Below, in pieces: positions 1,342 through 27,616 of a DNA stretch of 33,510 nucleotides; positions within the stretch are counted from its first letter, which is position 1; every line of letters begins with the position of its first letter. Position numbers and translations under genes: made by a program. The stretch comes from Sulfolobales archaeon (GTDB lineage Archaea; Thermoproteota; Thermoprotei_A; Sulfolobales; AG1): NCBI GenBank assembly GCA_038881635.1, contig JAVZPJ010000012.1:1-33510 (forward strand), written 5' to 3'. The notes under the pieces were generated by a model. The model did no database searches, was not told the DNA's origin, and saw only the letters and a list, made by a program, of their open reading frames with translations.

Positions 1342-1623
1342 CTAACCTCCTACTGCGGGTGGTAGGATTGCTATGACGTCATCATCTTTAATCTTTACAG
1401 ATCTAGCGTCATAGTCCTTCACAGCGGAACCGTTGATCAGAATAGCGTATCTACCCTTGATCCTGCCATTCTCATCAAGCAATATGCTGGAGATCTCTAC
1501 ACCCAGCTCTCTACTCAGAATCTCTATAAGCTCGTAGAGTGTTAGATCTTTTGATATCCTTATCATGTATTCTCTCACCTTTACTATCTCATATAATTCT
1601 CCATAGAATCTTATCTCAACCAT
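1342..1623 (-). CDS. MoaD/ThiS-like ubiquitin-fold sulfur carrier, probably for the pterin cofactor of the nearby AOR
   Basis: A 93-residue protein of beta-grasp size whose sequence ends exactly in a di-glycine (ILPPAVGG), the tail that is adenylated and thiocarboxylated in MoaD, ThiS and SAMP proteins. The N-terminal strand (MVEIRFYGELYEIVKVRE), the central helix (LYELIEILSRELG) and DDDVIAILPP near the end all fit MoaD. It starts at an ATG. It lies next to genes for a flavoprotein, a polyferredoxin and a tungstopterin aldehyde oxidoreductase, matching the AorD position known from bacterial AOR clusters. A role in making dithiolene sulfur for that enzyme is therefore inferred. It could also serve as a general MoaD or as a protein modifier. 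Confidence 0.85.
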   Translation of the reverse strand: MVEIRFYGELYEIVKVREYMIRISKDLTLYELIEILSRELGVEISSILLDENGRIKGRYAILINGSAVKDYDARSVKIKDDDVIAILPPAVGG

Positions 1624-1772
1624 GACGATATCAATCCTCTAAATATTACTCGTGCTATAGTAATTAAATAGTATTATGCTAATAATCTGTATCCTGCTAT
1701 GAAGATCTCGGCAGATTTCTCCAACAGTATATTAATTTTCCATAATTAGAAGAATATTATCAGGTAGTTATC

Positions 1773-3017
1773 TTGGAGAACGAAGTTCTTGTTGTAGGAG
1801 GAGGAGTTGCTGGTGGTAGTGCTATTTTAAGTCTTCATAATGCTGGTTATAAGGTGACTCTTGTATCTTCAGATCCTCTGGTTTATTCTAAGATGACTTT
1901 ATCATATGCTTTGAAGAGAAGAGTAACTTCTATAGATCCTTATGTGATATTCAGACCAGAGGATCTTAAACAACTAAACGTGGATTTTATTAATGATTCA
2001 GTGGTTTATATAGATCCTGATAATCGTGTTATTAGAACTAAGAGTGGTAGTATTATTGAATTCGATAATCTTGTTCTAGCAACTGGTAGTAGGATTGCAG
2101 CACCTCATATTGAAGGTATCGAGCTGAAGGGAGTGTACACATTTCTATCGTTTGAGGATGTAGTAGAATTAGATAGAGTAGCTACTCATGGAAGAAGAGC
2201 TGTTATAGTAGGTGCTGGCATGATAGGTCTTCTAGCAGCAGACAGTCTTTATAGCAGAGGTCTAGATGTGACTCTAATAGATATACTACCATATCCTTTG
2301 ATGACAGCTGTAGAAGAGCGTATAGCTAGAATTATGCTGGAAAGACTTACCGCGAGAGGAGTCAGGTTTCTAGGTAATAGTATTGTTGAGAGGATCGAGG
2401 GTTTCGGTAGAGTTGAGCAGGTGGTTTTAGCTACGGGAGATAAGATTCCAGCTGATATAGTTATAATAAGTACGGGGGTTAGAGCTAATGTTCCCGAGGG
2501 TTTGGAGAGACTTGTGGAAGGTCCTGGCAATTCTGTATTGACAGACGAGTTCTTCAGAACCAAGATGAAGAATATATATGCTATAGGAGATTGTGCTAGT
2601 AGCATAGACTATATAACCGAGAGAAAAGTTTACAGACCTCTAGGAATTATAGCATCTTATGAGGCTAGACTTCTGCCGAGAGCTTTGAAAGGTTTGAGCT
2701 ATAGAGGTTTTATACCATATCAAGTTGAAGAAGCCTTTGGCTATTACTTCATAAGACTGGGATTAAACGGCTTTGAAGCTAGAAGACTTGGTGTGAGCTA
2801 TTCCACGGCTTTGATAGAGTATAAGGTTCCGGGCCTGTATATTCTCAGAAGCCTTGTTATCTACGAGAGAGGTTCTGGAAGAGTTATAGGGTGGCAGAGC
2901 ATAGGTCCTTCTATGGTATCTTATAAATCTAAGATCTTTGAGGATATAATAAGAGCTGGTGGCAGTCTAGAAGATATTCAAGAGAAAAAAATTAGAATAG
3001 TTTGTGAGAATTGCTAG
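1773..3017 (+). CDS. FAD/NAD(P)-dependent pyridine nucleotide-disulfide-type oxidoreductase (candidate AorC-like subunit)
   Basis: 414 residues starting at TTG. An N-terminal FAD dinucleotide fold (VVGGGVAGGSA) is followed by the ATG motif in LVLATGSR, a second NAD(P) fold (VIVGAGMIGLLAADSL, about residue 145) and the FAD-closing motif YAIGDCASS near 272. The position where NADH oxidases or CoA-disulfide reductases carry an active-site cysteine reads YSKMTLSYALKRR, with no cysteine, so a thiol redox step is unlikely and simple electron transfer between NAD(P)H and FAD fits better. It converges on the ferredoxin gene with three bases between stop codons. Bacterial AOR complexes use a homologous flavin subunit to reduce NAD+, so I infer it is the partner of the neighbouring AOR and ferredoxin, although it is on the opposite strand. 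The C-terminus ends in CENC, a pair of cysteines of unknown use. Confidence 0.85.
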   Translation: MENEVLVVGGGVAGGSAILSLHNAGYKVTLVSSDPLVYSKMTLSYALKRRVTSIDPYVIFRPEDLKQLNVDFINDSVVYIDPDNRVIRTKSGSIIEFDNLVLATGSRIAAPHIEGIELKGVYTFLSFEDVVELDRVATHGRRAVIVGAGMIGLLAADSLYSRGLDVTLIDILPYPLMTAVEERIARIMLERLTARGVRFLGNSIVERIEGFGRVEQVVLATGDKIPADIVIISTGVRANVPEGLERLVEGPGNSVLTDEFFRTKMKNIYAIGDCASSIDYITERKVYRPLGIIASYEARLLPRALKGLSYRGFIPYQVEEAFGYYFIRLGLNGFEARRLGVSYSTALIEYKVPGLYILRSLVIYERGSGRVIGWQSIGPSMVSYKSKIFEDIIRAGGSLEDIQEKKIRIVCENC

Positions 3018-3020
3018 AAT

Positions 3021-3536
3021 TTATGTAGGTCTCACACCAGACCATACTCTCTTAGAAGCATCTGTCTTAGATCTCAGGAGTGAAGCGTATTGATAGGCGA
3101 AGTCTACGCCTACTTTTTCTACTTTCACAAATCTAAGAGCTCCATATTCGCAGGCTTTTACACATGCCGGCTCGCCATTACATAGATCACATTTTATAAC
3201 CTTACCATCACTACCCAGAGTTATAGCACCATAGGGGCATGCGTAGACACAAGCCTTACAATTTATGCATTTCCTATAGTCTATGAGAACAGCGTTAGTC
3301 TTAGGATCTCTATATATAGCATCAACACCACATGCCTCCATACACGGTGCCGGATCACAGTGATAGCATCCTGTCACTACAAAATCTCCAGTATCTCTCC
3401 AGGCGAAAACTCTGATCCTAGAATCTCTAGTGCTAAAACGTCCTGTCTTAGCATAGCTACATGCTAGAACACATCTCTCGCAACCAGTACACTTGCCGGA
3501 ATCGAACTCTAATATGTAGTAGCTTGAGACAGCCAT
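3021..3536 (-). CDS. HycB/AorA-like ferredoxin with four [4Fe-4S] clusters
   Basis: 171 residues with sixteen cysteines in the order of the DMSO-reductase beta-subunit/HycB family: CTGCERCVLAC near residue 16, CYHCDPAPCMEAC near 60, CINCKACVYAC near 90 and CDLCNGEPACVKAC near 115. Each set can ligate cubane clusters, giving four in all. There is no signal peptide or membrane segment, so it is cytoplasmic. It begins 10 bases after the stop of the AOR gene on the same strand and must be co-transcribed with it. The likely job is to carry electrons from the tungsten subunit to a flavoprotein or to other ferredoxins, as in bacterial AorA and the small subunits of WOR enzymes. The partner assignment is inferred from position. 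Confidence 0.9.
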   Translation of the reverse strand: MAVSSYYILEFDSGKCTGCERCVLACSYAKTGRFSTRDSRIRVFAWRDTGDFVVTGCYHCDPAPCMEACGVDAIYRDPKTNAVLIDYRKCINCKACVYACPYGAITLGSDGKVIKCDLCNGEPACVKACEYGALRFVKVEKVGVDFAYQYASLLRSKTDASKRVWSGVRPT

Positions 3537-3546
3537 CTACCATCAC

Positions 3547-5416
3547 CTACCATGTGACATGCTTGAAAACACCTTCATCTACACCAACTCTCTTCAAAGT
3601 CTCTTTAGTGGGTCTTCCCTCTCTATCCCAGCCTCTCAGCTCGTAATATTCGTTCTTCATTTTCTCAAACCATTCTCTGGGTAGCACTCTACCTCTAGTA
3701 GGTCCTGAAACATGTGGATCCTCGTGAATTCTGGGTGGTAGCACATCATCTTTAGCAGTCATACCCTCTCTAACATTAAACACTCGTATTAGATTGACAA
3801 TTCTCTCACCCGCTAACTCGAAGTTTCTTACATCTTTATACTCCTCGAAACCTGTCACAGCATATATGAGCATACTCAGTCTCTCATTATCCCAGCAGCA
3901 GAAGTCGCATACTCCCGCAGCAAATTTAGCTGCATACTGATGCTCCTGCTGGATCACTATTAACGCCTTGTTTTCAGGACTCCATCTCTCAATAGGAATA
4001 GGCTTAGCTCCCAGCCAGTATCTACCTAGAACCTCCGGGCCTATAGGCCATGATCTAAGATGGTCTCCGCCTCTGTCAGCAACTGCATAACTTAATCCCA
4101 TAGCCGGAGCCGCTCTAGGGTCGTATGCGGGGAGTTCTAATCCCTTGACATGCACAGCATATCTACAAGAATCTCTACCGATTTTTTCACAAGCTCTTCT
4201 ACTACCTTCAGCAAGTATATCTGCGAACACTGTCTTTCTATATGCTATAGCCTCTGTTAGTGCTATATAAGCCTCATCATTTCCAAATCTAAGTTCTAGA
4301 CCTCCAGTCTCTTCTCTTGATATAATACCTCTCTCATAGAGTTCTGTAGCCCATCCCAGAACTCCTCCTAGACTTATCGTATCAAGGCCGAGTTCGTCGG
4401 CGAGGTAGTTAAGCTTAGCAAGAGCACCTATATCTCCTATACCTAGATTTGATCCTAGCAATGCTGCAGTCTCATACTCAGGACCTTCAGTAAGAGTTCC
4501 AGCATACCTGCCACTCGATATTAGAATCCAGTTATGACATCCGATAGGGCATTGCCTGCATGAAGCTCTCTTAACTCTAACTCTCGCTACAGCTATCGCA
4601 TCAATACCATTCCACAGCTCGAAACTTCCTGTCTGGAAGTTTCTTGTTGGCAGAGCTCCCGCCTCATTAGTGAACCAGCCTAGAGATATGCTACCCCATT
4701 TAATACCGAACTCAGCTTCTGGATTCTTGAAAATATCTTTTTCTTTCATCTCTTCAATAATCTTCTCAAATTCTCTAGGTAGCGATATCTCAACACTTCC
4801 AGAACCTCTAACAGCTATAGCCTTTAGATTCTTAGACCCCATAACAGCACCAGCACCACCTCTACCATGCTGTCTACCCTCAGAATCTACTATTGAGAAT
4901 CTAACGAGTTTCTCGCCGGCAGGACCTATGCTTAATACTTTAACCTGTGGATCTCCTAGTTCTTCTTTTATAGCTTTTCTAGTCTCACTAATCCTCAGAC
5001 CCCACAGATGATCTGCTTTTCTGAATTCTATCCTGCCATCCTCTATATACAGATAGGAAGGCTTCTCAGCTCTACCTCTTATAATAACCCCATCGAATCC
5101 TGCATATTTTAATTCAACACCAACAGCTCCACCACTATGGGTATCAAGCCAGAACCCTGTTAGAGGAGATTTCGTGACTATAGGATACTTAGGCGAGGCT
5201 GGAGCTAGAGTGCTGTTGGCGGGGCATGTCATTATTATCAGCAGGTTATCTGGAGAGAGGATCCACGTCTTTAGGCATGTGATCTAGCATATATCTTGCT
5301 GCAATACCCTTACCGCCTATGTAGAGTCTTGCATAGCTCATGTTGAGAGGTTCTATAAAGTATTTCTCCTTAGACAGATCTATAAATGCGATTCTACCTA
5401 CATATCCTCCAGGCAT
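3547..5416 (-). CDS. aor: Tungsten-containing aldehyde:ferredoxin oxidoreductase family, interrupted by a frameshift
   Basis: The enzyme oxidises aldehydes to acids with a bis-tungstopterin centre and one [4Fe-4S] cluster. The main open frame (5232 to 3547, 561 residues) has GRGGAGAVMGSKNLKA, cluster cysteines CRQCPIGC, the pterin motif DELGLD and a late cysteine in AAGVCDFCCW. It lacks the family's first 60 residues. These lie upstream in another frame: ATG at 5414-5416 after an AGGTG site gives GGYVGRIAFIDLSKEK, IGGKGIAARYML and DPLS, then stops at TAA (5246-5248), while the main frame continues PDNLLII. Joined, the protein is about 620 residues and its cluster cysteines fall near 286, 289 and 293, as in the Pyrococcus enzyme. 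The break lies in a CT repeat (5251-5260): one more CT would restore the frame. It could be a true mutation, a recoding site or a sequence error. The DxxGLC motif is altered before its cysteine. Confidence 0.88.
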
Positions 5417-5440
5417 GTAAAACACCTTAAAATTATCTCA
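5414..5440 (-). promoter_or_regulatory. Ribosome-binding site and start context of the AOR N-terminal fragment
   Basis: On the minus strand the bases just before the ATG at 5414-5416 read TTAAGGTGTTTTAC, giving an AGGTG site about 7 bases upstream. An AT-rich run (TTTAAATA, about 5462-5470) about 50 bases upstream could be the TATA box. This normal translation start is the main evidence that the AOR gene begins here and not at the downstream ATG at 5232, which has no such site. Confidence 0.55.
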
Positions 5441-5587
5441 TGAAGATATTACTTAGAAAGTATTTAAATATTTCCAATCTAAATTACAGATCTTTATAAT
5501 AGTTTGATATCATCAATTAAAAAATTTAGATCTAATCGATTGAAAACCTAGCATCTGCAATATGCAAATCATCTTATAGATCTTAAT

Positions 5588-26664: not shown

Positions 26665-27402
26665 TTATCTTGTTTTATACATCTCACTACTAAGAGATCT
26701 CTTGATCCTAACTCCTAGATCTGGGTAGTCTGTTGCTATACCATCCACGCCTCTGGCCGCGAGTTCTCTAAACCATTTCTCATCATTAACAGTCCATGCA
26801 ATAGTTTTAAGATTCATTCTACGAGCTAGCTCCACCGATCTAGATGTTGCTAGAGTGTATCTTGGTAGAACTATTTCAAAACCTTCTCTTTTCGCTGTTA
26901 ATATCTCTCCAGGAGGCTTATAGTATATGATTCCTACCGGTGTGTAGGGGTCTAAACGCTTCACATTTCTCAGAACTTCTGTGTGGAAGCTTATTATTGC
27001 GATCCATTGTGATGCATCTAATCTTCTCACGAGATCCATTATATGGATCTCGTCACCAGGTTTCTTAACCTCGATGAGAACACCGATTCTATCTATAGAG
27101 AAGCTCAGCACCTCTTCCAGTGTAGGGATCTTCTCACCGTTAATCTTTATATCAGAGAGATCGCTGTACTTCATCTCTCTAATACTGGCGTTAATCCCAG
27201 CAATCCTTCTAAGATCCTCATCATGAAAAACTACCGCGATTCTATCTAGGGTTATCTGAACATCTATCTCGATAAGATCTGATCCTACTTCTAAAGATCT
27301 CTGAACACCTAGGAGAGTATTTTCAGGAGCAAGACCAGAACCTCCTCTATGAGCTATCACAGCAAAAGGTTTTTCACTAAGTTTCATAAGAACTCTATTC
27401 AT
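26665..27402 (-). CDS. Glycerophosphodiester phosphodiesterase (GDPD family)
   Basis: About 245 residues. The family pattern is whole: AHRGGSGLAPENT (catalytic His-Arg), EIDVQITLD (metal-binding Glu and Asp), VFHDEDLRR (second His), LIEVKKPG (Glu and Lys) and the closing TVNDEKWFRELAARGVDGIATDYP. It hydrolyses glycerophosphodiesters to glycerol phosphate and alcohol with a divalent metal, in lipid turnover. I set the start at ATG 27402, preceded by GGAGGT 5 bases upstream. A longer frame to 27555 would run into the opposing tRNA-Leu gene and encodes nothing family-like. No signal peptide with this start, so it is cytoplasmic. Confidence 0.92.
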   Translation of the reverse strand: MNRVLMKLSEKPFAVIAHRGGSGLAPENTLLGVQRSLEVGSDLIEIDVQITLDRIAVVFHDEDLRRIAGINASIREMKYSDLSDIKINGEKIPTLEEVLSFSIDRIGVLIEVKKPGDEIHIMDLVRRLDASQWIAIISFHTEVLRNVKRLDPYTPVGIIYYKPPGEILTAKREGFEIVLPRYTLATSRSVELARRMNLKTIAWTVNDEKWFRELAARGVDGIATDYPDLGVRIKRSLSSEMYKTR

Positions 27403-27531
27403 GAAAAACCTCCTACCATAGGAATATACCAAGAGCAAGATAAACCTGCCACAGATCCTTTTCCTCATAATAGATCCACATATGATCGATAGAGCTAAGT
27501 CTAATAAGTCTCCATATAATTTCTTTATTGG

Positions 27532-27616
27532 GCGGGGGTGCCCGAGCCAGGTCAAAGGGGTCGGGCTTAGGACCCGATGGCGTAGGCCTGCGTGGGTTCA
27601 AATCCCACCCCCCGCA
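27532..27616 (+). tRNA. tRNA-Leu(TAG)
   Basis: 85 bases with a long variable arm, as expected for leucine. Acceptor GCGGGGG (27532-27538) pairs with CCCCCGC (27609-27615), discriminator A at 27616. Anticodon stem TCGGG/CCCGA encloses CTTAGGA, anticodon TAG at 27568-27570 (reads CUA and related codons). T arm GTGGG-TTCAAAT-CCCAC. No intron and no encoded CCA. T-rich DNA (27650-27655) follows. Confidence 0.94.

Follow-up and report, generated by a model that had tools for sequence, protein, structure and literature searches.

A private frameshift in the large-subunit gene of an AorABC-like locus of a Sulfolobales archaeon

One enzyme of the Class III tungsten oxidoreductases has been characterized (PMC13328260). 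In the cellular genes of archaea, programmed frameshifting is known chiefly from fucA1, where a −1 shift takes place at a conserved heptamer (PMC8211752). According to the authors of GeneTack, in programmed frameshifting the site must be conserved and the cases must form a cluster, and singletons are recent indels or sequencing errors (PMC3711429). Here we analyze a stretch of 33,510 nucleotides from a Sulfolobales archaeon (the window), in which the large-subunit gene of a predicted tungsten aldehyde oxidoreductase (AOR) is divided between two reading frames.

The features of the locus are summarized in Table 1. They include those of a Class III tungsten oxidoreductase, namely AFOR_N and AFOR_C domains (here spread over two frames), an adjacent FeS small subunit and an FAD-binding subunit for NAD, and each of the three chain types of AorABC (8c0z) has a sequence match here. 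The locus thus resembles AorABC, and tungsten- and NAD-linked activity is predicted for it. The AOR-FeS-FAD arrangement of this gene set (positions 1342-5416 with the MoaD/ThiS-like gene included) recurs in eight relatives, among them Aigarchaeota/Geocrenenecus-type MAGs, and the MoaD/ThiS-like gene is conserved beside it in the four closest. As similarity to the FeS and FAD subunits is weak elsewhere in the genome, this looks like its only locus of the AorABC type. A second FeS subunit gene stands directly before another AOR-family gene of the genome (L049:2843-5015, G000:C1), in a two-subunit (WOR5-like, Class II) arrangement.

Table 1. Positions of the features of the AOR locus in the window.
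Feature	Position	Strand	Evidence
MoaD/ThiS-like small protein	1342..1623	-	ThiS E 4.7e-10; TIGR01687 E 2.2e-11, below its cut-off
FAD/NAD subunit (WorN / AorC-like), convergent	1773..3017	+	Pyr_redox_2; 8c0z_E E 3.4e-28; NADH oxidase 6ruz E 1.4e-44; conserved in eight loci
FeS subunit (WorS / AorA-like), directly downstream of AOR	3021..3536	-	8c0z_C E 1.9e-33; adjacency in eight loci
ORF2, remaining AOR large subunit with cluster ligands and catalytic residues; frame open upstream to the junction	3547..5232	-	AFOR_N 58-198, AFOR_C, 1aor
Frame junction GATCCTCTCTCCAGATAAC containing the 7-bp tract CTCTCTC; two bases (net) fewer than in the family	5245..5263	-	Uninterrupted DPLSP[D/E/N]N in orthologues
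ORF1, AOR large subunit, N-terminal 56 residues from the native start (5416)	5246..5416	-	AFOR_N match, translation
Putative promoter GGAAATATTTAAATA (BRE/TATA-like) and AAGGTG ribosome site before ATG 5416	5425..5475	-	Inspection only

Direct reading of the minus strand from ATG 5416 gives MPGGYVGRIAF...DVDPLSR, and ORF1 is ended after 56 residues by TAA at 5248-5246. A second frame of the same strand carries PDNLLIIMTCPANS... and contains the 561-aa ORF2, from ATG 5232 to 3547; it remains open for another 17 codons upstream of that ATG, giving 578 aa. The frames of ORF1 and ORF2 meet at GATCCTCTCTCCAGATAAC. The Pfam AFOR_N profile is divided between them, with positions 1-49/50 in ORF1 (E = 3.8e-10 for positions 1-49) and 46-198 in the second frame (58-198 if counted from ATG 5232), while AFOR_C lies in the second frame, and ORF2 matches 1aor with E = 1.1e-120. 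Because both halves match the family strongly and abut exactly, the division is not a matter of chance; judged by these matches, ORF1 and ORF2 belong together as parts of a single tungsten aldehyde oxidoreductase. The frameshift in the deposited sequence is therefore confirmed, and the sequence-only reading, which had reported an AOR gene broken at this place, described and located it correctly.

Nine orthologous loci are present in archaeal MAGs, with identities of 91% (L028), 88% (L029), 86% (L030), 85% (L035) and 66-69% (L031-L034 and L010). L029 is the same locus in G001, the sole congener that was found. All nine are uninterrupted here. Eight were read at the junction and each has VDPLSP[D/E/N]N in a single open frame, which bears out the earlier proposal that the family reads D-P-L-S-P-D-N at this point, with D, E or N at the sixth position; in the ninth (L010) both halves of the gene share one frame. 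The CT tract is absent from all eight, whose codons differ (CCT TTA TCT, CCC TTG TCG, CCT CTA TCT, CCA CTA AGT and others). Since the orthologues are uninterrupted and lack the tract, the tract is private to this genome, and so is the break. If a single T is skipped, the peptide falls one residue short of every orthologue, whereas two more bases restore the family length, and therefore a net loss of two bases is the best description. It had been suggested that one more CT unit is needed. The net two-base loss does fit the peptide length, but the unit itself is a deduction from the length and the sequence around the junction, and no relative has it. We looked for a second assembly of the same species and found none.

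The remainder of the gene is well preserved. The sequence-only reading had regarded many other disabling mutations as evidence against a switch, yet codon comparison with four close orthologues revealed no further stop or frameshift. The same comparison gave dN/dS = 0.039-0.054, ratios that are rough because dS is saturated, and the gene has been under constraint until very recently. The 568-codon part has 16 private replacements, equal to the number in the nearest relative. The 54-codon N-terminal part has five, compared with none in the nearest relative (Fisher p = 0.06), and within this gene the two parts differ (5/54 versus 16/568, Fisher p = 0.03); these p-values are weak and uncorrected, and the excess is too weak to claim relaxed constraint. 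The [4Fe-4S] ligands, together with a Glu and a His, align to identical residues of Pyrococcus furiosus AOR, where we take the Glu and His to be residues near the tungsten. On inspection the promoter and start look intact. We rejected a decayed pseudogene, given the lack of any other lesion and the low dN/dS. With the gene otherwise intact, the break must be recent, or not in the DNA, or bypassed.

The CTCTCTC tract is of an ordinary kind. It is 7 bp in length, and dinucleotide tracts of that length occur about every 630 bp in the genome, with 2,174 of 7 bp, 717 of 8, 216 of 9, 89 of 10 and 13 of 11 in 1.38 Mb. CT/AG words in a 0.83-Mb sample are about as frequent as dinucleotide composition predicts, with 2,001 at 7 bp (1,516 expected) and 176 at 9 bp (185 expected). 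This is not a contingency-locus repeat. The draft assembly is in 18 contigs, and we screened 1.38 Mb of the 1.405-Mb genome (98%) for frameshifts, as distinct from in-frame stops, using as queries the ORFs of at least 100 aa from 0.78 Mb of the congener. Among 507 matched frames, which include some antisense ORFs, there were two candidates, the AOR gene and phosphoglucosamine mutase (L113, G000:C6). The latter was rejected as an over-extended upstream ORF, leaving no further convincing case in the 98% of the genome that was compared against part of the congener. We therefore rejected a generally error-prone assembly; the assembly is not indel-prone overall, but may still contain a single residual error.

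We think that a very recent, singleton two-base deletion broke the AOR large-subunit gene, and give this a probability of about 0.5. Two bases would have been lost from the short CT run, too recently for other decay to follow, and the large-subunit gene of an AorABC-type locus would thereby be disrupted. Translation from the native start would end after 56 residues, and the cofactor-binding domain of any ORF2 product would be missing its first 62 or so residues; the PDB homologues all have some 61-64 residues more before the start of the match. With these residues missing, cells carrying the allele would be expected to have an inactive enzyme, and an active product is unlikely. There are five other intact AOR-family genes in the same genome, and these could buffer the loss. 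We infer that the bases are missing from the DNA and not from the consensus alone. The screen bears on this, because an assembly with no other convincing frameshift is not indel-prone, and this counts for a real deletion. Counting against it, the flawless remainder of the gene, its promoter and its partner genes would fit a misread intact gene equally well.

That the gene of the organism is intact, and the deposited contig two bases short at this one place, is quite possible, though at less than even odds. The rest of the gene is pristine (dN/dS about 0.04-0.05), the assembly is a draft and a dinucleotide run is a plausible site for a miscount. Moreover, the GeneTack authors expect homology-validated singleton frameshifts to come from sequencing errors more often than from true indels (PMC3711429). 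Yet the genome screen brought up no second convincing frameshift, the tract is short, and dinucleotide tracts of at least 7 bp are common elsewhere in the genome without visible trouble. A recent mutation and an assembly error, which the sequence-only reading had called the dull options, together fit best with a break that is private and a tract that is ordinary.

Recoding is very unlikely. It would require the ribosome to slip back by two bases (P site, CUC to CUC; A site, UCC to UCU), or slippage in transcription, to generate the full-length enzyme. At CCTCTCTCC both tRNAs can pair anew after a −2 slip, with the exact family peptide DPLSPDN as the product, both halves of the gene are still constrained, and −1 programmed frameshifting is known in Sulfolobus (PMC8211752). 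However, the re-pairing results from the loss of a repeat unit and is not independent evidence, and the shift site is not conserved in the relatives. No stimulatory RNA structure was found in the 123 nt from the site onward, which give no better fold than shuffled sequences do (z = +0.94, for local folding as distinct from long-range or pseudoknot pairing), and there is no Rfam match at the junction. Shifts of −2 are known mainly from viruses (PMC5009743); the junction has no match in the viral contigs searched, and a literature search on AOR frameshifts in archaea gave nothing relevant. We rejected a programmed frameshift as the main reading on the basis of the unconserved site, the private interruption and the lack of a stimulator in the region examined. 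If true, recoding would mean that a cellular archaeal gene compensates for an indel by a −2 slip.

Slimmer still is the chance of a split protein, in which ORF1 assembles with an ORF2 product reinitiated at ATG 5232, or ORF2 functions alone. The in-frame ATG is only 13 nt past the stop, the cluster and catalytic residues are all in ORF2, and the slightly denser private replacements in ORF1 might be read in the same sense, weak as that difference is. Against this, inspection revealed no clear ribosome site before the ATG, and the further residues present upstream in the PDB homologues lie within the cofactor-binding domain. The suggestion that the enzyme might be switched on and off by changes in the length of the CT run has the least to commend it and we rejected it, for although the break is in a dinucleotide repeat, that tract is 7 bp only, near its chance frequency and absent from all relatives, with no structure found and the interruption private.

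As it stands a single private frameshift in a single draft genome carries little weight. It has a consequence for annotation, as gene callers would report the AOR protein as 561 aa long and start it wrongly at 5232, and the locus is modestly useful as an archaeal example of predicted three-subunit, NAD-linked tungsten oxidoreductases. In another part of the window a tRNA-Leu gene (plus strand, 27532-27616; anticodon TAG by inspection) overlaps the TTG start at 27555 of a minus-strand ORF (26665-27555) that looks like a glycerophosphodiester phosphodiesterase. The called start is probably too far upstream.

The locus shares with AorABC of Aromatoleum aromaticum (PDB 8c0z; PMC10413684, PMC13328260) the joint encoding of W-type, four-cluster-type FeS and FAD/NAD subunits. 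It differs in being archaeal, in having the FAD gene on the opposite strand and an added MoaD-like gene, and in the frameshift of its large-subunit gene, and by score the nearer match of the large subunit is P. furiosus AOR (1aor), ahead of 8c0z. The α-fucosidase gene fucA1 of Saccharolobus/Sulfolobus solfataricus is similarly an interrupted thermoprotean enzyme gene whose junction contains a short repeat. In fucA1 there are a slippery poly-A heptamer, rare codons and a putative stem-loop, which are kept in relatives, and its full-length products have been demonstrated (PMC8211752). By contrast the AOR gene has a net shift of +1/−2, no such structure found and a site that is not conserved. It is like the singleton frameshifted genes of GeneTack (PMC3711429), being found in a single genome, validated by homology and without a conserved shift site, and from these it has no notable difference.
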